Below, piece by piece: positions 1 through 43,519 of a DNA stretch of 58,072 nucleotides. Each line of letters begins with the position of its first letter. Positions within the stretch are counted from its first letter, which is position 1. A model generated the notes under the pieces. The model was not told the origin of the DNA, did no database searches, and saw nothing but the letters and a program-made list of their open reading frames with translations. The DNA is from Chitinophagales bacterium (GTDB lineage Bacteria > Bacteroidota > Bacteroidia > Chitinophagales > JADJOU01): assembly GCA_030832185.1 (NCBI GenBank), contig JAURJQ010000030.1, positions 117,725 through 175,796 on the forward strand, read 5' to 3'. A program made the position numbers and the translations under genes.

Positions 1-111
1 TATTTAAAATCAAAACTGGGTAGGTATGCTAAATATTACGATATGTTAAAATCATTTGAAAGTATTCGTGGAGCGCAAATGAGAATGGTCTATCAGGTGA
101 ATGGTTTATAA
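1..111 (+). CDS. C-terminal fragment of an unidentified protein (5' end outside window)
   Basis: Frame 1 is open from the first base to a TAA at 109-111 and gives the last 36 residues of a protein, ending in MRMVYQVNGL. The fragment is basic and aromatic with no recognisable motif. I cannot identify it. It ends 8 nt before the TTG start of the WbqC-like gene, so the two are probably co-transcribed. In many Bacteroidota signal peptidase I precedes WbqC-like genes, but this tail does not look like a signal peptidase C-terminus. Confidence 0.55.
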   Translation, partial: YLKSKLGRYAKYYDMLKSFESIRGAQMRMVYQVNGL

Positions 112-119
112 TCATTATC

Positions 120-701
120 TTGACGAAATCAGTTCCTCTTTTTTATTTCGGCAATATAGCATATTGGCATGAGCTCATTGAGCTAGAAAAGTTGTGTTTC
201 ACGACCAAATTCCCTATACCTAAAAAGACCTATGCTAATCGCACAGTTATACTCATGGCCAATGGTCTTCAGACTCTGACCGTTCCAATCTTAGGCGGGA
301 GAGGAAGTAAAATTCCTATGGATAAAATCGAAATATCTTATCTAGAGAATTGGATAGCTAAGCATAAAATGGCTTTGCAATCAGCCTATGCTAAGAGTCC
401 TTATTATGAGCATTATATGCCTTATTTTGAGCCCATTTGGGCTGCAAAGCCTCAGTCGCTCATGCAACTTAATTTGAACATGTTTAAAGTACTTTCAAGA
501 GTATTGAAACTGAATATAGAAATAGTAGAAGAGGAAACTATGAATCTATCAGAAGACCAGTTCATTCCTAATATTTATTGTCAGACACTTGTTTCGTATC
601 CTCAGGTGTTTCGATATAAATTTCCTTTTCATCCCGATTTATCTATTTTGGATTTAATTTTTTGCATGGGACCTAATGCCATGTCTTATCTAAAAAGCTA
701 A
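120..701 (+). CDS. WbqC-like family protein
   Basis: Encodes 193 residues resembling the WbqC-like family, which is found in Bacteroidota and in some O-antigen loci. Its biochemical role is not established, although a sugar-nucleotide or aminotransferase-related role has been suggested. Family-like features are an N-terminal hydrophobic strand (about 6-15), a YANR segment (38-41) followed by a strand and NGLQ-TLTVPI, and a W-x-x-KH...SAYAKSPYYEHY block (about 78-99). The start must be the TTG at 120, because the next in-frame ATG (255) would remove the conserved N-terminus. No Shine-Dalgarno is visible. The length is close to the usual size of about 200 residues, so the gene looks intact. Confidence 0.8.
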   Translation: MTKSVPLFYFGNIAYWHELIELEKLCFTTKFPIPKKTYANRTVILMANGLQTLTVPILGGRGSKIPMDKIEISYLENWIAKHKMALQSAYAKSPYYEHYMPYFEPIWAAKPQSLMQLNLNMFKVLSRVLKLNIEIVEEETMNLSEDQFIPNIYCQTLVSYPQVFRYKFPFHPDLSILDLIFCMGPNAMSYLKS

Positions 702-35796: not shown

Positions 35797-36363
35797 ATGC
35801 TTGAAACGATACAGAATTCAGATATCATTCTACTTAGGTTTATCCATTTGGATTTGTCGAATCCGTTATTGGATAGTTTATGTCCTATTCTAAGAACTAA
35901 GACAACTTGGATCCCTCTTTATGTATGCTTAGTCTATTATTTTTGGAAATATTTTCCAAGAGATTACATTAAGATCATATTGATATCTATCATCCTTGTC
36001 TCACTGGCAGACATAGTTTGTGCTCAGCTATTGAAGCCATGGTTTCATCGCATAAGGCCTTGTCAGTCAGAAGAATTGGTTTATTGGCTACGGATGTTTC
36101 CCTATTGTAGTCAGACGTTTAGTTTCCCATCATGCCATGCCGTGAACCATGCTGCTCTGGCATTTTTTATTGGCCAATTTTTCAACATATGGCAGCGAGT
36201 GTTATTGGTGTTTTGGGTCCTACTCATTGGATTTAGTCAGTTATATATAGGAGTGCATTATCCTAGTGATATCCTTGGGGGTATAGTTCTTGGCTGGGTA
36301 TTTGCTATGTGCGCCACTATAATTTGCAATCGTTGGGTTACATCCAATTCAAGAGACGTCTAA
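35797..36363 (+). CDS. PAP2-family membrane phosphatase
   Basis: Encodes 188 residues with about five membrane segments. The three PAP2 motifs are seen: KPWFHRIRPC (K-x6-RP), FPSCHAVNHAAL (usually PSGH, here Gly replaced by Cys) and LYIGVHYPSDILGGIVLG (usually SR-x5-H-x3-D, here the catalytic His and Asp are kept). Members dephosphorylate lipid phosphates such as undecaprenyl pyrophosphate or phosphatidate. The stop overlaps the convergent PBP gene by 4 nt. Confidence 0.88.
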   Translation: MLETIQNSDIILLRFIHLDLSNPLLDSLCPILRTKTTWIPLYVCLVYYFWKYFPRDYIKIILISIILVSLADIVCAQLLKPWFHRIRPCQSEELVYWLRMFPYCSQTFSFPSCHAVNHAALAFFIGQFFNIWQRVLLVFWVLLIGFSQLYIGVHYPSDILGGIVLGWVFAMCATIICNRWVTSNSRDV

Positions 36364-38621
36364 TAATCTTTTTTCCCACTTGGTAGAATAGAGTCAAGAT
36401 CTACATCTTGGAGATTAGAACCGTAGCTATCTATTGGTGCTCTATCATCTAGATAGCTACAATTAAATTTTTGAATAGTAGCACTGTCTGTTTCATTGAA
36501 AAACGAACCAGATTTATATTTCGGCAAGGTAGTTGCTTTCTTATAAAATTTGGCCCAGATAGGCAGCGCAGAGTTAGCTCCTTGACCTAGTCGTGTAGAT
36601 GCAAAAGTAATAGAAGGATCATCTGCTCCTACCCATACCGCAGTGAGAAGATTGGACGTACTTCCTATAAACCAGCCATCAGAATTTGATTGAGTAGTTC
36701 CAGTTTTGCAGGCTATTTCTTCTTTAAATCCATATTGGCTGCGCAGGCGAGTAGCAGTGCCTTTCTCTTTGGATACTTGCTGAAGCATTAGGTTCATTAG
36801 TTTTGCTGTTTCAGCAGTTATAGCTTCCTTGGATTGCGGCTTATTTTCAAATATGACATTGCCATTTTTATCTTCTATACGATCTATGTAGTATGGCTGA
36901 CTAAAGATTCCCTCATTCATATAGGGTGAGTAGGCTCCAAGCATTTCTATAACGGATACATCCGCTGTGCCAAGACATATAGCGGGCACTTCTTCGAATT
37001 CAGTTTCTATCCCTAGCTGTCTGGCCTTATCTATAAGAAGAGACGGTCCGAATTGTTTGATTAATAGGGCAGCAATTCTATTGTCTGAGACTTGGAGGCC
37101 CGCTTTAAGAGAAACTTCCTCCCCATCCTGGAAATTTTTTGATCCTTTAGGGTCCCAACTTTCATGACCTTCGATGAGCGGTTTTTCATATTTAAGCTTA
37201 CTACAAGGCGTCATTCCATTCTCTAATGCTACATTATACAAAAATGGCTTGAATGTAGAGCCCACCTGTCTTTTTGTAGATTTTCGAACATGGTCGTATT
37301 TGAAAAAATTAAAATCAACACCACCTACCCACGCTCTTATCTTACCTGTTTGAGGCTCCATAGCACATAGTCCTGTTTGTAATATTTTTTTGATGTATTT
37401 GATAGAGTCTATGACACTCATCATCGTATCTACTGGGCCACGATAGGTAAAAATTTGCATGGTATGCTTCTCTTTGCCTAGGATAGTGAAAATTTCCTCT
37501 TCAGATTTTCCAGCATCACTTAGTGCTTTATAATGTTCAGTTTCTCGAACTATATTTTTGACTAAATCAGGATTAGCCTTAGCCCCATATTTATAAGGAT
37601 CCTTAGCTCCCCATTCACGGAGAAATTCTTTTTGAAGCCATGGCATATGCTCAGCTACTGCTATTTCAGCATAGTTTTGAAGTTTAGAATTTATCGTGGT
37701 GTGAATGCGCAATCCGTCTGTGTATATATTGTATGATTCTCCGTTTTCTTTGGTATAATTCCTAAGTATTTCTACTAGTTCTATTCTAATCTGCTCTCTA
37801 AGGTATGGAGCCATACCTGTGCTTGGAGAGGTCAGTTTATAATCAAGTTTGATTGGGAGTTTTTTGGCTCTATTTGCTGTCGTTTCGTTTATAAATCCAG
37901 CTTTTCTCATTTGTTCGATGACTATGTTTCTCCTTTTTAGTGCGTTCTTTGGCTTTGATTTAGGATTATAAAGTGAAGGTCCTTTGAGCATGCCAACTAA
38001 AATGGCAGATTCATCAAGAGTAAGCTTTATAGGTTCTTTATTGAAATAGGTTTTAGAGGCCTCTCTAAGACCATAAGAATTATGCAGGAAAGGAACTGTA
38101 TTAAAGTAGAGGGCGAGAATTTCTTGTTTGGAAAAATTTCGCTCTAGTTCTATTGCTATATACCACTCTTTTATTTTTTGTATCAGCCGCTTGAATTTAT
38201 TCTTTCTACCTTCAGAATGAAATAGGTTTTTCGCCAATTGTTGGGTAATCGTGCTAGCACCAGATGGCTTTCTGAGTACGAAGGTTCTAAAGGTGGCAGA
38301 GATAACTCCAAAGACATCAATGCCAGAATGATCATAAAATCGCTCATCTTCTGTGGCTATGAGAGCCTCTATCGTGCTAGCTGAAATTTGCTTATAATTA
38401 AGTTCTGTTCTATTTTCATAGTAGAGTTTACCCATGACTTCGACATCTTCACTATAGATTACAGAAGATACCTGGCTTTCAGGGTTTTTAATATACTCTA
38501 TAGAAGGTAATTCTCCTAGCCAACCTTGAGCAACAGAAAATAGTAGTAGAGAAAATAAGAGTATAAACCCAATGAATACCTTGAAAAATAATCTAAAATA
38601 GTACTTAAAGCTATTTTCCAT
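36360..38621 (-). CDS. Class A penicillin-binding protein 1A (glycosyltransferase/transpeptidase)
   Basis: Encodes 753 residues. One N-terminal membrane anchor (about 10-31), then the GT51 transglycosylase domain (LIATEDERFYDHSGIDVFG, GASTITQQLAKNLF, KIKEWYIAIELERNFSKQEILALYFN) and the transpeptidase domain with SxxK in RQVGSTFKPFLY (Ser near 459), SDN in LQVSDNRIAALL and KTGTT (near 639). It builds and cross-links peptidoglycan on the periplasmic face. Starts 7 nt after glmS, so precursor supply and polymerisation are apparently co-transcribed. Confidence 0.95.
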   Translation of the reverse strand: MENSFKYYFRLFFKVFIGFILLFSLLLFSVAQGWLGELPSIEYIKNPESQVSSVIYSEDVEVMGKLYYENRTELNYKQISASTIEALIATEDERFYDHSGIDVFGVISATFRTFVLRKPSGASTITQQLAKNLFHSEGRKNKFKRLIQKIKEWYIAIELERNFSKQEILALYFNTVPFLHNSYGLREASKTYFNKEPIKLTLDESAILVGMLKGPSLYNPKSKPKNALKRRNIVIEQMRKAGFINETTANRAKKLPIKLDYKLTSPSTGMAPYLREQIRIELVEILRNYTKENGESYNIYTDGLRIHTTINSKLQNYAEIAVAEHMPWLQKEFLREWGAKDPYKYGAKANPDLVKNIVRETEHYKALSDAGKSEEEIFTILGKEKHTMQIFTYRGPVDTMMSVIDSIKYIKKILQTGLCAMEPQTGKIRAWVGGVDFNFFKYDHVRKSTKRQVGSTFKPFLYNVALENGMTPCSKLKYEKPLIEGHESWDPKGSKNFQDGEEVSLKAGLQVSDNRIAALLIKQFGPSLLIDKARQLGIETEFEEVPAICLGTADVSVIEMLGAYSPYMNEGIFSQPYYIDRIEDKNGNVIFENKPQSKEAITAETAKLMNLMLQQVSKEKGTATRLRSQYGFKEEIACKTGTTQSNSDGWFIGSTSNLLTAVWVGADDPSITFASTRLGQGANSALPIWAKFYKKATTLPKYKSGSFFNETDSATIQKFNCSYLDDRAPIDSYGSNLQDVDLDSILPSGKKDY

Positions 38622-38628
38622 TTTTGGA

Positions 38629-40473
38629 TTATTCTACCGTAACACTTTTAGCTAGATTTCTAGGTTGATCTACGTTACAGCCTCTTTCTAGTGCCGTATA
38701 ATAGGATAGTAATTGAAGTGGAATAGAAGCCAGAATAGGACTTAGACAATCTTCTGTATCAGGCACTTCAATAACATGTTTCGCTAATTTTTTAATTTGA
38801 GTATCTCCATGTCGAGCTATAGCAATGACCTGTCCCTTTCTAGCCGCGACTTCTTGCACATTACTAAGGGTCTTTTCATGGCTGCTTATGTTATTCACGA
38901 GAAATACTACAGGCATTTCTTCATCTATAAGTGCAATAGGGCCATGCTTCATTTCTGCTGCAGGATAACCTTCTGCATGTATGTAGGAAATTTCTTTTAA
39001 TTTGAGCGCACCTTCTAAAGCTGCTGGGAAGTTATACCCTCTACCTAAGTAGAGAAAATTAGTAGCATTTTTATACTCTTTGGCTATCGCTTTTACCTTC
39101 TCTTCACATGATTTGAGAAGTGATTCTATTTTTGATGGTAAAATTTCAAGTTCGTGAAGCAATTGGTTCAGTCGGGATTTAGATAAGGTATTTTTATTTT
39201 CAGCTATCCAAAGTGCAATGAGGAAAAATACAGAAACCTGGGCGGTAAAAGCTTTAGTACTAGCTACGCCTATTTCAGGTCCAGCATGGGTATAGCATCC
39301 AGCATGAGAAGCCCTAGGAATAGAAGAACCTACCACATTGCAAACCCCAAGAATCAAGCAGCCTTTCTGTTTAGCCATTTCGATGGCAGCTAGGGTGTCA
39401 GCGGTCTCCCCCGACTGCGATATAGCTATAATAATATCGTCTTCGTCTATGACTGGATTTCTATATCTAAATTCCGAGGCATACTCTACTTCTACATTAG
39501 CTCTAGCTAGATCTTCAATCATATATTCAGCTAAAAGACCAGCATGCCAAGAGGTTCCACAAGCCACAATTACGATTCTTCTGGACGCCATGATTCGATT
39601 TTTGTACTCTTCCAGACCGCCTAATTTTATTTTACCATTTGTTAAATCTACCCTTCCGCGGACACTGTCATAAATGCTCTTTGGCTGCTCATGTATTTCC
39701 TTGAGCATAAAATGCTCATAACCGCCTTTTTCAATAGACTCTAGGTTGAGTTCTAATTCTTGAATATTAGGTGTTTTTTCTTCGTTTTGGATAGTTTTTA
39801 ATTCAAAGTTACCATCTCTATTTAATGTTACCATTTCTTCATCATTAATATAGATGACTTTCTTGGTGTATTCTATAACTGGCGAGGCATCAGAAGCCAG
39901 AAAAAATTCATTTTCTCCTATACCTACTATCAGTGGGCTTCCCTTTCTAGCACCAATGAGTATATTGGGTTCTTTTTTAGAAAACACTGCTATAGCATAA
40001 GCTCCAGTAACTTCATTTAACGCTAAGCGAACAGCTTTGTCTAGCGCACATTTTTCCTTTTTTTGAATTTCTTCAATCAGATGGGGAAGGACTTCTGTAT
40101 CTGTATCAGATATAAATTTGTAGCCTCTTCTTGTTAGCTCTTCTTTGATGGATTGAAAATTTTCTATAATACCATTATGAACGACTACTATATCCCCATT
40201 ATTACTTATATGAGGGTGAGAATTTATTTGACTCGGGGGGCCATGTGTGGCCCAACGAGTATGGCCAATGCCGAGTGCCCCGTTTATACTAGCTTTTGTA
40301 GCTAATTCTTCTAACTCAGATACTTTCCCTTTTTGCTTTATTAGGGAGATATTCCCATTATTCATAAGTGCTACACCTGCACTGTCATAGCCTCTATATT
40401 CTAGTCTTTTTAATCCTTTTAAGAGAATGGGATAGGCTTCTTTGGTTCCTATATAGGCTACAATTCCACACAT
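38629..40473 (-). CDS. glmS: Glutamine-fructose-6-phosphate aminotransferase (isomerizing)
   Basis: Encodes 614 residues, normal length. Makes glucosamine 6-phosphate, the first step to UDP-GlcNAc. N-terminal nucleophile amidotransferase domain: MCGIVAYIG with Cys2, RLEYRGYDSAGVAL and GIGHTRWATHGPPS. Two SIS domains follow with VACGTSWHAGLLAEYMIED, SQSGETADT, and LGRGYNFPAALEGALKLKEISYIHAEGYPAAEMKHGPIALI (key residues). The C-terminus is LPRNLAKSVTVE-like (QPRNLAKSVTVE). Between the DUF4270 gene (12-nt gap) and PBP1A. Confidence 0.98.
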   Translation of the reverse strand: MCGIVAYIGTKEAYPILLKGLKRLEYRGYDSAGVALMNNGNISLIKQKGKVSELEELATKASINGALGIGHTRWATHGPPSQINSHPHISNNGDIVVVHNGIIENFQSIKEELTRRGYKFISDTDTEVLPHLIEEIQKKEKCALDKAVRLALNEVTGAYAIAVFSKKEPNILIGARKGSPLIVGIGENEFFLASDASPVIEYTKKVIYINDEEMVTLNRDGNFELKTIQNEEKTPNIQELELNLESIEKGGYEHFMLKEIHEQPKSIYDSVRGRVDLTNGKIKLGGLEEYKNRIMASRRIVIVACGTSWHAGLLAEYMIEDLARANVEVEYASEFRYRNPVIDEDDIIIAISQSGETADTLAAIEMAKQKGCLILGVCNVVGSSIPRASHAGCYTHAGPEIGVASTKAFTAQVSVFFLIALWIAENKNTLSKSRLNQLLHELEILPSKIESLLKSCEEKVKAIAKEYKNATNFLYLGRGYNFPAALEGALKLKEISYIHAEGYPAAEMKHGPIALIDEEMPVVFLVNNISSHEKTLSNVQEVAARKGQVIAIARHGDTQIKKLAKHVIEVPDTEDCLSPILASIPLQLLSYYTALERGCNVDQPRNLAKSVTVE

Positions 40474-40485
40474 AATTTTAAAATA

Positions 40486-41799
40486 TTAAAGATCAGTATA
40501 ATATAATTTTAATTTAGGTTTAGCAGCATTTCCTGTGCCGCCAATAACTACACTCGAAGGTAGGAAATCTGAAAATTTGGTCAAAGAATTGGAAATCAGT
40601 AATGGTGCTGAATAAATTCTCAACTTTCTGGTTGTATTTATATTGGTTCCCATCCTATTGACATACATTGCTATATTGTACTTATATTCCTTACAGGGAT
40701 TAACTCCTATTGAGGTGTCTTTGATAGAAATTAAAAAGCCTTTTTTGTATAGTTCGTCCGGTAGGGCAAACTCACGATTTAAGGTGTCCAACGACATAAG
40801 TCCAAGATTCGGTGTGAGAAAAACTCCTGTATCTAGTATGTATAGGCTTAGTTCTGCTTTGAAAACACTTTTCATTTTCATGAAACTGGAGAGATCTGGA
40901 AGCACTAAGGTCGTTACATAGCCACTCAATCCATGGCTGTATAAAAGATTATCTCCAGAGGTATTATTTGGATTTTGACTTGCTAATCTTGCTAGACTTG
41001 AATTGTCATGAAGAAATTGATTAATAGTGGTTGAATTATTCCCTCCAGTGTTAAAATCAGAGGTGATCGAGCCTCCATTGGCATTCTTGCCATAAATTCT
41101 TAGCGTGTTATCAGATCCTATGCTTAGTAATACAAATCCATTTGTACTGTTACTTCCGCTACTTCTTACGTAGAGTCCTTTCAGTACATTCTGAAAATCT
41201 GCGTCACTTGAATAGACTCCTGGGGCAATAATTTTATTGGCTAGACTGCGATTTAAAGGAACTCTTATGGCTGGAGCTGCCTTAAATCCTCCATCTAAGG
41301 TGCTATCCTTATAATTAGCGGTAAAATTAGTTAGGGAACCAAGTAAGCTAGGATTATAACTATAGGTCATTTTTTTACTATTAGGGTCGGTTTCTATTCC
41401 TTCTGTCATTTCATATACCTCTAAACTGAATGGCTGATTTGCAGAGCCGTAGGCAGGAGTAGTTGCATAATAAGGAATAATTAGCACGATAGAATCCACT
41501 GACGCAAAAGTAAAACTCTTACTAGATAGTGTAGTCTGATAGCTAGCGAAATAGCTAGATCTAAAAGTGCCGTAATGCTCATCTATTTTAGTGCCAAAGG
41601 GGACTACACTGGTATTCCTTATCGCTCTTAATGAATCTAAAGCATTATACCCGATTACCACAAGGCTATCATTTGATTTCCAATTGAGTGGAAAATTACT
41701 TGTGTTGTCAATAAAATCTGTACCTTCTTTACTACAAGAGTATAGGGAAATAAGAATGAAAAGCTGGCAAATCGTTTTCGTTAAATTATGCGCCTTCAC
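40486..41799 (-). CDS. DUF4270 lipoprotein
   Basis: Encodes 437 residues. Signal peptide with lipobox ISLYSC, so the mature N-terminal cysteine is near residue 22. The rest is strand-rich with Ser/Asn/Thr runs: DSLRAIRNTSVVPFGTKIDEHYGTFRSSYFASY, GFKAAPAIRVPLNRSLA, FKAELSLYILD and a C-terminal PKLKLYYTD strand. This is the Bacteroidota DUF4270 layout. Function unknown; probably at the outer membrane. It overlaps the half-glgA gene by 14 nt and precedes glmS, a gene order I recall as common in the phylum. Confidence 0.82.
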   Translation of the reverse strand: MKAHNLTKTICQLFILISLYSCSKEGTDFIDNTSNFPLNWKSNDSLVVIGYNALDSLRAIRNTSVVPFGTKIDEHYGTFRSSYFASYQTTLSSKSFTFASVDSIVLIIPYYATTPAYGSANQPFSLEVYEMTEGIETDPNSKKMTYSYNPSLLGSLTNFTANYKDSTLDGGFKAAPAIRVPLNRSLANKIIAPGVYSSDADFQNVLKGLYVRSSGSNSTNGFVLLSIGSDNTLRIYGKNANGGSITSDFNTGGNNSTTINQFLHDNSSLARLASQNPNNTSGDNLLYSHGLSGYVTTLVLPDLSSFMKMKSVFKAELSLYILDTGVFLTPNLGLMSLDTLNREFALPDELYKKGFLISIKDTSIGVNPCKEYKYNIAMYVNRMGTNINTTRKLRIYSAPLLISNSLTKFSDFLPSSVVIGGTGNAAKPKLKLYYTDL

Positions 41800-42622
41800 T
41801 TTCTAAAACTGGTTTGAAAGCATCTATATATTCAAAGAATGCCTTAGGATTATCATGAGTCATATCTCTATTAAACGTTGGCTTTTTGCTATCTATTACA
41901 CATTTATTGAGATCGCTATCAATAGAATGAGTGTTGAGGATAATTCCATCAGAGTAATTAATAGCACCACGGCATAAAGCAGTGTGCGTAGCGGGTTTAA
42001 AATCTAAGCCTTTTTCTTCCTTTATAGCATTGTCAAGAAGAGCTTTTTCTAAAAATTTTTCTTCAAGAGCATGATTGAAGCTCTCATCAAATATATTAAA
42101 AAATATTTTAGATTCCGAAAATATGGGGTCAGCTCCATATAAGGTGCGAGCATAAAAAGGCACCAGACTCGTCATCCAGCCATTGCAAATTATAAAGTCT
42201 GGAGCCCACCCAAATTTTCGCACTGTCTCCATGATACCTCTATTGAAAAATATCATGCGCTCTGAATTGTCATCATAGAATTTTCCATTTTCATCTTCAA
42301 AGTCAAATTTCCTTGTATAAAAATCGTCATTATGTAAGAAATAGATTTGAAGTCTGTGTTTAGAATTAGGTAAAGATGCTACTTTTACTGTTAAAGCAAA
42401 ATCTTCGTCGTTAAACATTACGTTGATTCCACTTAATCTGACAACCTCATGAAGCTTGTGTCTTCGCTCATTGATGGTTCCAAACCGCGGCATGAGAATG
42501 CGCACATCAAGTCCGTTAGAAGCTAATTCGTTCGGGAGTTCGGATATTTTATTGGCTATATCTGTCAAATTGTTAAACGGCTCTAACTCAGAAGTCAGAA
42601 AAAGTAATTTTCTCTTAGTCAT
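41786..42622 (-). CDS. Glycogen/starch synthase-like protein, N-terminal GT5 half only
   Basis: Encodes 278 residues similar to the N-terminal Rossmann half of GlgA: KLLFLTSELEPF, LPNELASNGLDVRILMPRFGTIN, HDDF/YF-like HNDDFYTRKFDFEDENGKFYDDNSERMIFFNRGIMETV and FIICNGWMTSLVPFYAR. Full GlgA is about 470 residues, and the C-terminal GT-B half with the catalytic ExxGxxxxE region is absent. The ADP-glucose-binding KxGGL motif is also missing (NNLTDIANK in its place). Starch synthesis activity is therefore unlikely. The protein is followed by DUF4270, glmS and PBP1A, suggesting an envelope role. Confidence 0.8.
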   Translation of the reverse strand: MTKRKLLFLTSELEPFNNLTDIANKISELPNELASNGLDVRILMPRFGTINERRHKLHEVVRLSGINVMFNDEDFALTVKVASLPNSKHRLQIYFLHNDDFYTRKFDFEDENGKFYDDNSERMIFFNRGIMETVRKFGWAPDFIICNGWMTSLVPFYARTLYGADPIFSESKIFFNIFDESFNHALEEKFLEKALLDNAIKEEKGLDFKPATHTALCRGAINYSDGIILNTHSIDSDLNKCVIDSKKPTFNRDMTHDNPKAFFEYIDAFKPVLESEGA

Positions 42623-42668: not shown

Positions 42669-42676
42669 CAAAGATA
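42669..42676 (-). promoter_or_regulatory. -7 promoter element for the half-glgA / DUF4270 / glmS / PBP1A operon
   Basis: The minus strand reads TATCTTTG, 46 nt before the ATG at 42622. It is the only such element I found upstream of the four-gene run. Confidence 0.5.
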
Positions 42677-42754: not shown

Positions 42755-43519
42755 TTACGACTTAATCACTATGTTAGAATTAGCCTGCGCTGCGCAGGTG
42801 ATGAGGAGATCGCCTATATGCACATGAGATGGCCTGGAGACTATGTAGTAAACGGCGTCTGCTACATCCTTAGCATAAAGGGGCTTAAATCCCTGATAAA
42901 CCTTTTCCGCTTTAGCTTTATCGCCATGAAATCTCACCTCTGAAAATTCTGTATGAACCATGCCAGGTGCTACACTGCTTACTTTGATATTATGCTCTAA
43001 GAGATCTAGTCTTAAACTTTTGGTCAGTGCATCCACAGCACTTTTGCTAGCGCTATAAACATTGCCGCCTAGATACATGTCTCGCGCTGCAGTGCTACTT
43101 ATATTTACTATATGCCCAGATTTATTTTCTATCATGAAAGGAATAACTTCTTTCGTAAGATAGATAAGGCCTTTAAGATTAGTATCTATCATCGTTTCCC
43201 AATCAGATTCTAATCCTTCTTGGAATGGAGATTTGCCTAACGCTAAGCCTGCATTATTAACGAGTAGGTCAATTTTAGTAAGAAGATTTGCACAACTAGC
43301 AAGACTATCTTTTACCTTTTCGCGCTGCTGTATGTCAAAGCAGACGGTTCGCACGTCGACATTATATTTAGTTTTTAAACTGGATGCCAGTTTATTCAAT
43401 CTATCTAGTCTTCTACCAGATATAATAAGGTCCCACTGATTCGTAGCAAGAATTTCGGCTGTGGCCTCTCCTATGCCGGAAGTAGCTCCCGACACGAATG
43501 CTAATTTATTTTTTGTCAT
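42755..43519 (-). CDS. Short-chain dehydrogenase/reductase, YdfG-like
   Basis: Encodes 254 residues of a classical SDR. Evidence: SGATSGIGEATAEIL (NAD(P) loop), the basic residues SGRRLDRL after strand 2 suggesting NADPH, VNNAGLALG, the catalytic Ser-Tyr-Lys set with NISSTAARDMYLGGNVYSASKSAVDALTKSLR, and VSSVAPGMVHTEF. This matches YdfG-like 3-hydroxy-acid/serine dehydrogenases. Substrate not determinable. A TAAATTTG element on the minus strand lies 7 nt upstream. Confidence 0.92.
   Translation of the reverse strand: MTKNKLAFVSGATSGIGEATAEILATNQWDLIISGRRLDRLNKLASSLKTKYNVDVRTVCFDIQQREKVKDSLASCANLLTKIDLLVNNAGLALGKSPFQEGLESDWETMIDTNLKGLIYLTKEVIPFMIENKSGHIVNISSTAARDMYLGGNVYSASKSAVDALTKSLRLDLLEHNIKVSSVAPGMVHTEFSEVRFHGDKAKAEKVYQGFKPLYAKDVADAVYYIVSRPSHVHIGDLLITCAAQANSNIVIKS

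Follow-up and report, generated by a model that had tools for sequence, protein, structure and literature searches.

The window analysed here, the whole stretch of 58,072 nucleotides from a Chitinophagales bacterium, carries on its minus strand (41786–42622) an open reading frame for a 278-residue protein of glycosyltransferase family GT5, with an N-terminal GT-B domain and what appears to be a closing C-terminal helix, but without the catalytic C-domain. The locus raises the question of what such a short GT5 protein does in the cell. Our preferred reading is that of a cytoplasmic pseudoenzyme with a housekeeping role, probably in envelope assembly, made together with BamH; we give this statement as a whole a little better than an even chance, whereas its pseudoenzyme part alone is very probable.

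Domain architecture and lost catalytic residues

The frame begins with ATG and has zero internal stops. Its sole Pfam domain is the GT5 N-domain (PF08323, Glyco_transf_5; residues 5–229, 143.3 bits against a cut-off of 22.7). The NCBIfam whole-protein models score far under their cut-offs, TIGR02095 (GlgA) with 95.9 bits against 328.45 and PRK14098 with 159.4 bits against 754, and cover the protein with only about their first 200–215 model positions. The N-terminus, MTKRKLLFLTSELEPF..., forms the first GT-B strand; no signal sequence or lipobox was seen in it when it was read directly rather than with a predictor, which suggests that the protein is cytoplasmic.

An AF2 model based on 67 sequences (pLDDT 90.4, pTM 0.90) retrieves GT5 synthases as its best Foldseek matches; in structure comparison phosphorylases come after them, a fold likeness that by itself gives no function. 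Superposition with VIA-align places model residues 4..274 on residues 1..478 of 1rzu_B (Z 24.6, 2.6 Å, 246 residues), and model residues 1–4 to about 267–277 pair with the first to the last residues of GT5 chains (1rzu_B 1..478, 2qzs 1..477, 6gne_B 23..516; Z 24–28); these ranges are first and last aligned residues only, and the internal gap rests on the aligned lengths (about 240–253) and the sequence match. The usual ending of full-length synthases is SW..S(A)..Y..LY..L, and that of the short family is Y..(F/L)Y..L. Because the model superposes on GT5 to both ends and the C-terminal motif is shared, the C-terminal Rossmann domain appears to be missing from the inside, with the closing helix that packs on the N-domain kept. 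The earlier note on this DNA had described an intact 278-residue GT5 frame without KxGGL whose catalytic C-terminal half is absent, and this holds, as the frame ends at 278 residues without a C-terminal Rossmann domain; its statement that only the N-terminal half remains needs amendment with regard to the C-terminal helix, which the model alignment and the Y..(F/L)Y..L ending indicate to be retained.

The loss extends to residues within the N-domain. We take K15, G17, G18, D21, D137, H161, R300, K305 and E377 of GlgA (E. coli numbering) to hold the donor or to act in catalysis. The focal protein has N18-L-T-D-I22 at the position of KTGGL, and the alignment sets its N18, T20, D21, N24, G148 and F178 at K15, G17, G18, D21, D137 and H161. 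Across the family, the K15 column holds 42 K and 3 R in 45 full-length rows, compared with 8 K in 116 short rows; G17 is present in 42/45 against 1/116 and G18 in 42/45 against 0/116, while D21, D137 and H161 are invariant in the full-length rows (45/45 each) and remain in only 7/116, 7/116 (109 rows have G instead) and 5/116 short rows. All 116 short rows have gaps in the R300 and K305 columns, and the E377 column lands in an unrelated linker. Other positions are kept, namely E9 (113/116), P12 and P42 (116/116 each), D105 (115/116) and R109 (114/116). The histidine of HAHDW was considered as the catalytic residue and discarded, since the alignment sets H161 in TVHN.

In the short rows 58 positions are at least 90% conserved, and at 20 of these fewer than half of the full-length rows agree; the focal protein keeps 53 of the 58. 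They cluster at 51–67, 77–83, 93–110, 133–136 and 148, largely following model strands 39–45, 92–97 and 143–147. In the N-domain of a GT-B protein the ends of the strands face the cleft. Because the conserved clusters largely follow such strands, the constrained surface would be the former inter-domain face, a placement made from topology without coordinates. The stretch INERR..LHEV.RLSG was rejected as a hallmark of the short family, as related full-length synthases have a similar one, MP(R/K)(F/Y)G.I.(E/D)R(K/R)..(L/I)H, and only the short-specific conserved positions set the family apart.

The host genome (2.2 Mb, 31 contigs) was searched for the remainder of a glycogen pathway. It contains no second PF08323 protein and no other GT5 by TIGR02095, hence neither a full GlgA nor a lone GT5 C-half. 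Nor was a lone glycosyltransferase C-half found among its ten PF00534 matches, which all lie in frames of 361–399 residues, the size of whole enzymes. No GlgC, the source of ADP-glucose, scores above cut-off (best TIGR02091 match 37.7 bits against 424.9). Glycogen synthesis as the role of short GT5 is rejected on the sub-cut-off GlgA scores, the lack of another GT5 and of GlgC in this genome, and the lost residues. Apparently non-catalytic, the protein is on this evidence no glycogen enzyme, and the database name glycogen synthase is wrong.

Distribution and constraint of the short GT5 family

With the focal protein as query, relatives are found in 147 of 149 genomes of the class Bacteroidia, with frame lengths of 247–336 residues among the primary matches listed. 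A profile of 28 members (alignment A1, 28 of 30 loci; L054 and L059 excluded) matches 386 of 395 class genomes of completeness at least 70, a count that includes two weak rows, G427 and G533. It also matches 352 of the 355 near-complete genomes (at least 90% complete, at most 5% contaminated), and the three without a match have 300–420 contigs. A second alignment, A2, comprises 66 of 80 loci and the focal protein, with L062, L083 and 12 others (near-copies and the odd L135) excluded.

Outside the class, among the matches listed, short relatives occur in families f24, f22, f21, f19, f14, f26, f30 and f36, and families such as f18 have only full-length synthases of 488–491 residues or longer, one f18 protein being a PRK14098 starch synthase at 943 bits (NCBIfam). 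In a tree of the N-domain columns, a single branch with SH-aLRT 100 separates the 35 short rows used from 45 full-length rows, and the focal protein, whose 278 residues fit the family length, falls inside the short clade. The short GT5 proteins of about 270 residues are thus one old clade, kept by nearly every sampled class genome. The f18-type synthases are nearest to this clade with weak support (55). Three of them (L249, L258, L259) carry RVSSLAD or RISALAD in place of the GlgA KTGGLAD and are perhaps an intermediate towards the short clade; L258 exceeds the PRK14098 cut-off.

Short GT5 is under strong purifying selection. Its identity lies within 0.05 of that of GlmS and above those of PanC and BamH in 19/19 locus pairs, and its dN/dS is 0.017–0.083 in the 17 computable pairs of the 19, which were picked by a short-GT5 identity of at least 0.85 from the 36 loci that have the complete set of four genes, a choice that favours short GT5. 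A decaying pseudogene, a frameshift or an assembly error is ruled out by these values and by the constant length and frame across the class (frame lengths from the matches listed).

Pedobacter/Mucilaginibacter pairs (L084, L088, L093, L072, L074, L075, L105) show a four-fold-site identity of short GT5 of up to 0.73, as against mostly 0.25–0.43 for the direct neighbours; this rise is absent from the pairs L116/L138 and L070/L079. It may reflect high expression or an extra constraint at the nucleotide level; that strong expression keeps synonymous divergence low was set aside on the ground that codon usage of short GT5 is unremarkable (median Nc 50.7 versus 50.5 for other genes).

Genomic context

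On the minus strand, short GT5 is followed by the only DUF4270 match of the host genome (40486–41799), whose frame overlaps that of short GT5 by 14 nt. This lipoprotein (PF14092, 99.4 bits) has a lipobox-like LYSC followed by acidic residues and scores 48.7 bits with BamH_fj, under the cut-off of 420; by family it is assigned to BamH of the Bacteroidota BAM complex. The third gene of the operon, glmS (38629–40473, minus strand), follows 12 nt later, and the fourth, 7 nt after glmS, encodes a class A penicillin-binding protein (PBP) with Transgly and Transpeptidase domains in Pfam (36360–38621, minus strand). Beside the latter and convergent with the operon end lies a PAP2-family phosphatase (35797–36363), possibly an undecaprenyl-diphosphate phosphatase. 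Upstream, where relatives have a divergent panC, there is a short-chain dehydrogenase (42755–43519, minus strand), which is no conserved partner.

Neighbours were surveyed at 80 named loci, 79 of which have the focal frame; L083, which lacks it, and loci too short upstream or downstream were dropped from the counts. The DUF4270 cluster is directly 3' of short GT5 in 61 of 73 loci with more than 1.5 kb downstream. At three further loci (L128, L139, L140) this place is taken by a longer flavobacterial cluster, whose tested member, that of L140, is DUF4270/BamH (PF14092 265 bits, BamH_fj 393 against 420), and with these bamH adjoins short GT5 in 64 of the 73. Upstream, 64/77 loci have a panC cluster in divergent orientation, whose tested member matches PF02569, and the glmS cluster c3 occurs in 47/80, mostly at +2. 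Among 20 chosen diverse genomes, BamH comes next after short GT5 in 19, the exception being G316, in which a Pfam-confirmed enolase (L143, 10296–11564) is directly upstream of short GT5.

Outside the class, the order short GT5–bamH–bamG is found in 8/8 genomes examined, with L148, which the BamH profile did not catch, counted via BLAST. The BamH and BamG profiles include sequences from some of the loci on which they were run; BamG was checked independently by NCBIfam, giving 221–267 bits in all eight against a cut-off of 250, exceeded in L150, L151 and L156. In these clusters glmS is not labelled. Three genomes outside the class have an enolase-like frame, recognized by inspection of the sequence, near the short GT5/BamG cluster (L154, 3746–5080; L156, 12842–14131; L157, 1775–3064).

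A promoter may precede the operon. The sequence TATCTTTG (42669–42676, minus strand) lies 46 nt ahead of the ATG and is similar to the –7 box of Bacteroidota, TAnnTTTG; the match in the window is weak, and no –33 TTG was found at the usual distance from it. Among relatives, the two-box pattern occurs within 150 nt upstream of short GT5 in 29/77, compared with 22/1540 shuffles, and around the short GT5 stop in 0/74 loci.

Retention in reduced genomes

Two reduced genomes, G316 (489,825 bases, 22% GC) and G525 (1.2 Mb), keep the short GT5 gene, and profile searches detected neither BamG nor DUF4270 nor GlgC in either. By tblastn, G316 has murC–G, mraY, ftsI/W/A/Z, ddl and a class A PBP, as well as a 580-residue BamA-like frame with a POTRA domain. 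GlmS, GlmU, PanC, PanD and LpxA–D were not found in it by tblastn (E. coli, window and locus queries; E 1e-3), absences that are less sure in a genome of 22% GC where the BamA-like frame itself surfaced only with a better query. In G525, GlmS is present but encoded elsewhere, and panC stands beside the short GT5 gene. Judged from what these two genomes keep and lack, the constraint on short GT5 seems independent of BamG/BamH, GlmS, pantothenate synthesis and glycogen. Two such genomes are a small sample, however, and as both have peptidoglycan genes they cannot show a dependence on the peptidoglycan pathway.

Discussion

The earlier note had also claimed that the gene stands in an operon with envelope genes, that such proteins are widespread in Bacteroidota, and that this one is a pseudoenzyme with a new role. 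The 14-nt overlap with DUF4270, followed by glmS and the class A PBP, and the relatives in 147/149 and 386/395 class genomes agree with the first two claims; of the third, a constrained pseudoenzyme outside glycogen synthesis stands, whereas the proposal that it senses UDP-GlcNAc or another sugar nucleotide finds no support, given the loss of donor residues and the retention of the gene in G316, where tblastn detected neither GlmS nor GlmU. The identity of the DUF4270 neighbour as BamH by family offers a better lead. A C-half in trans and a loss of constraint across species had been named as findings that would overturn the proposal: the former was looked for in the host genome with PF00534 and TIGR02095 and not found, and the latter is not seen in the 386/395 genomes, the dN/dS range or the proposed conservation analysis of the short family, which gave 58 clustered positions.

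Compared with GT5 synthases (GlgA, TIGR02095; best-scoring type PRK14098, NF010698), short GT5 shares the fold and sequence of the N-domain and a Y..LY..L-like C-terminal helix; it differs from GlgA in lacking the C-terminal Rossmann domain, in the loss of KTGGL, D137, H161, R300, K305 and E377, and in scores far under the cut-offs. Pseudo-glycosyltransferase partners such as GtfB of GtfAB are inactive GT-B proteins kept for binding, as we propose for short GT5; GtfB-like proteins, however, keep both Rossmann domains.

In the mechanism that we envisage, the C-terminal Rossmann domain of a GlgA-type GT5 would have been lost once, in a single excision before the class Bacteroidia split from some neighbouring classes, with the N-domain and the closing C-terminal helix retained. 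The old inter-domain face, freed by this loss, would then have been open to new binding. The newly fixed residues (N51, E52, R54, L57, E59, S64, G65, N67, L77 to S83, K105, K136 and G148) would largely follow the β-strands lining the freed face, for which reason a small ligand or protein partner is proposed to bind there, and short GT5, produced along with BamH, might have a scaffolding or switching function in the assembly of the cell envelope. The envelope is our best guess because of the gene company (BamH, BamG, GlmS and PBP) and because a genome of 0.49 Mb has kept the gene along with peptidoglycan synthesis and a small protein resembling BamA. On the other side, the linkage with bamH may be a transcriptional convenience, as BamH and BamG can be lost while short GT5 stays. 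A more specific form, which we advance only tentatively, would make short GT5 the cytoplasmic part so far missing from an ancient outer-membrane assembly module, short GT5–BamH–BamG; it would sense or handle a precursor of the envelope in the cytoplasm and link this to construction of the Bacteroidota surface, its core role outlasting BamG and BamH.

Other readings account for part of these observations. Short GT5 could be a dedicated cytoplasmic factor of the Bacteroidota BAM or surface-lipoprotein pathway, acting with BamH and BamG in, for example, expression, glycosylation or delivery. The head-to-tail gene order in all eight genomes outside the class, the short GT5–bamH linkage across the class and a promoter motif found before short GT5 and never around its stop are in accord with this, as is the fjoh_0824 promoter that drives the F. 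johnsoniae BAM depletion constructs, BamH being Fjoh_0823. We nevertheless regard such a factor as doubtful: G316 and G525 retain short GT5 with no BamG or DUF4270 detected, a word search of the main texts of two BAM papers (PMC12611786, PMC12578637) finds neither glycogen nor starch synthase, and since no signal sequence was seen, short GT5 should not meet BamH at its final site. The earlier proposal of a sugar-nucleotide sensor or regulator, for instance of GlmS via UDP-GlcNAc, draws on a fold that descends from a nucleotide-sugar enzyme and on the usual place of glmS in the class, two genes downstream; it is unlikely in view of the lost donor-binding and catalytic positions (K15, G17, G18, D21, D137 and H161, and R300, K305 and E377 with the C-domain), of G316, and of glmS lying elsewhere in G525 and being unlabelled in the clusters outside the class. 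Short GT5 is probably no GlmS regulator.

GT-B glycosyltransferases with split halves exist, and short GT5 might be half of one, with its C-domain supplied in trans as in Alg13/Alg14. This is very improbable, as all ten PF00534 matches are in frames of whole-enzyme size and no other GT5 C-half is present in the host genome, the catalytic and donor residues of the N-domain are lost as well, and the C-terminal helix is already in cis. That the gene is a decaying glycogen synthase relic, to which the absence of both GlgC and a full GlgA from the host genome would lend itself, is scarcely credible beside its near-universality, its single old clade and its low dN/dS. There is little to recommend, finally, a binder of a small molecule of metabolism, such as a cobamide or nucleotide, whose gene merely happens to lie beside envelope genes. 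The sole motif relatable to cobamide binding is HCHGW, and its H145 is I in the focal protein; D..H..G, one position off from DxHxxG, which we take to be the B12-binding motif, was rejected for the same missing histidine. In favour of such a binder, and against the envelope reading in that it points to other possible ligands, BT_4307 of B. thetaiotaomicron, annotated as a putative glycogen synthase and numbered beside BtBamH (Bt4306), is one of 16 proteins that a B12 photo-probe captured reproducibly, with log2 values of 2.61 and 1.05 in the two independent screens (PMC8941943). The same capture list includes general proteins (trigger factor, prolyl isomerase), and section 5 of that paper contains no discussion of the BT_4307 capture.

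BT_4307 (Q89ZR9) and Fjoh_0824 would, from gene position, belong to the short GT5 family, BtBamH being Bt4306 and FjBamH Fjoh_0823 in the cited sections of PMC12611786 and PMC12578637, which do not name short GT5 among the BAM components; the F. johnsoniae paper uses the fjoh_0824 promoter for depletion constructs. BamG and BamH are outer-membrane and surface proteins; short GT5 is their gene neighbour, has no signal sequence that we could see, and persists in two reduced genomes in which they were not detected. We found neither a functional study of the short GT5 family nor a published link to bamH in the PMC papers searched. One review sentence mentions a GlgA-GT5 'fragment' retained in Bacteroidetes, evidently this family, and gives no architecture, distribution, neighbours or function there; according to the passage cited from a gut-glycogen review (PMC10395257), all Bacteroidetes members lack GlgC. 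In the relevant part of a vesicle paper (PMC10797578) BT_4307 is listed as a potential glycogen synthase and glycogen storage is taken as possible, whereas the catalytic apparatus of the short GT5 family is gone.

A gene present in nearly every sampled member of a very common bacterial class, and conserved at about the level of GlmS in the pairs compared, is thus misnamed, and the name has already led to the storage inference in B. thetaiotaomicron (PMC10797578). The gene's association with bamH, joined by bamG in genomes outside the class, offers an entry point to a possible cytoplasmic arm of the Bacteroidota BAM machinery. For P. gingivalis, the portion cited of PMC10394638 reports positive selection on a 'glycogen synthase' orthogroup, OG0000702; this orthogroup may correspond to the short GT5 family, which would change its meaning.
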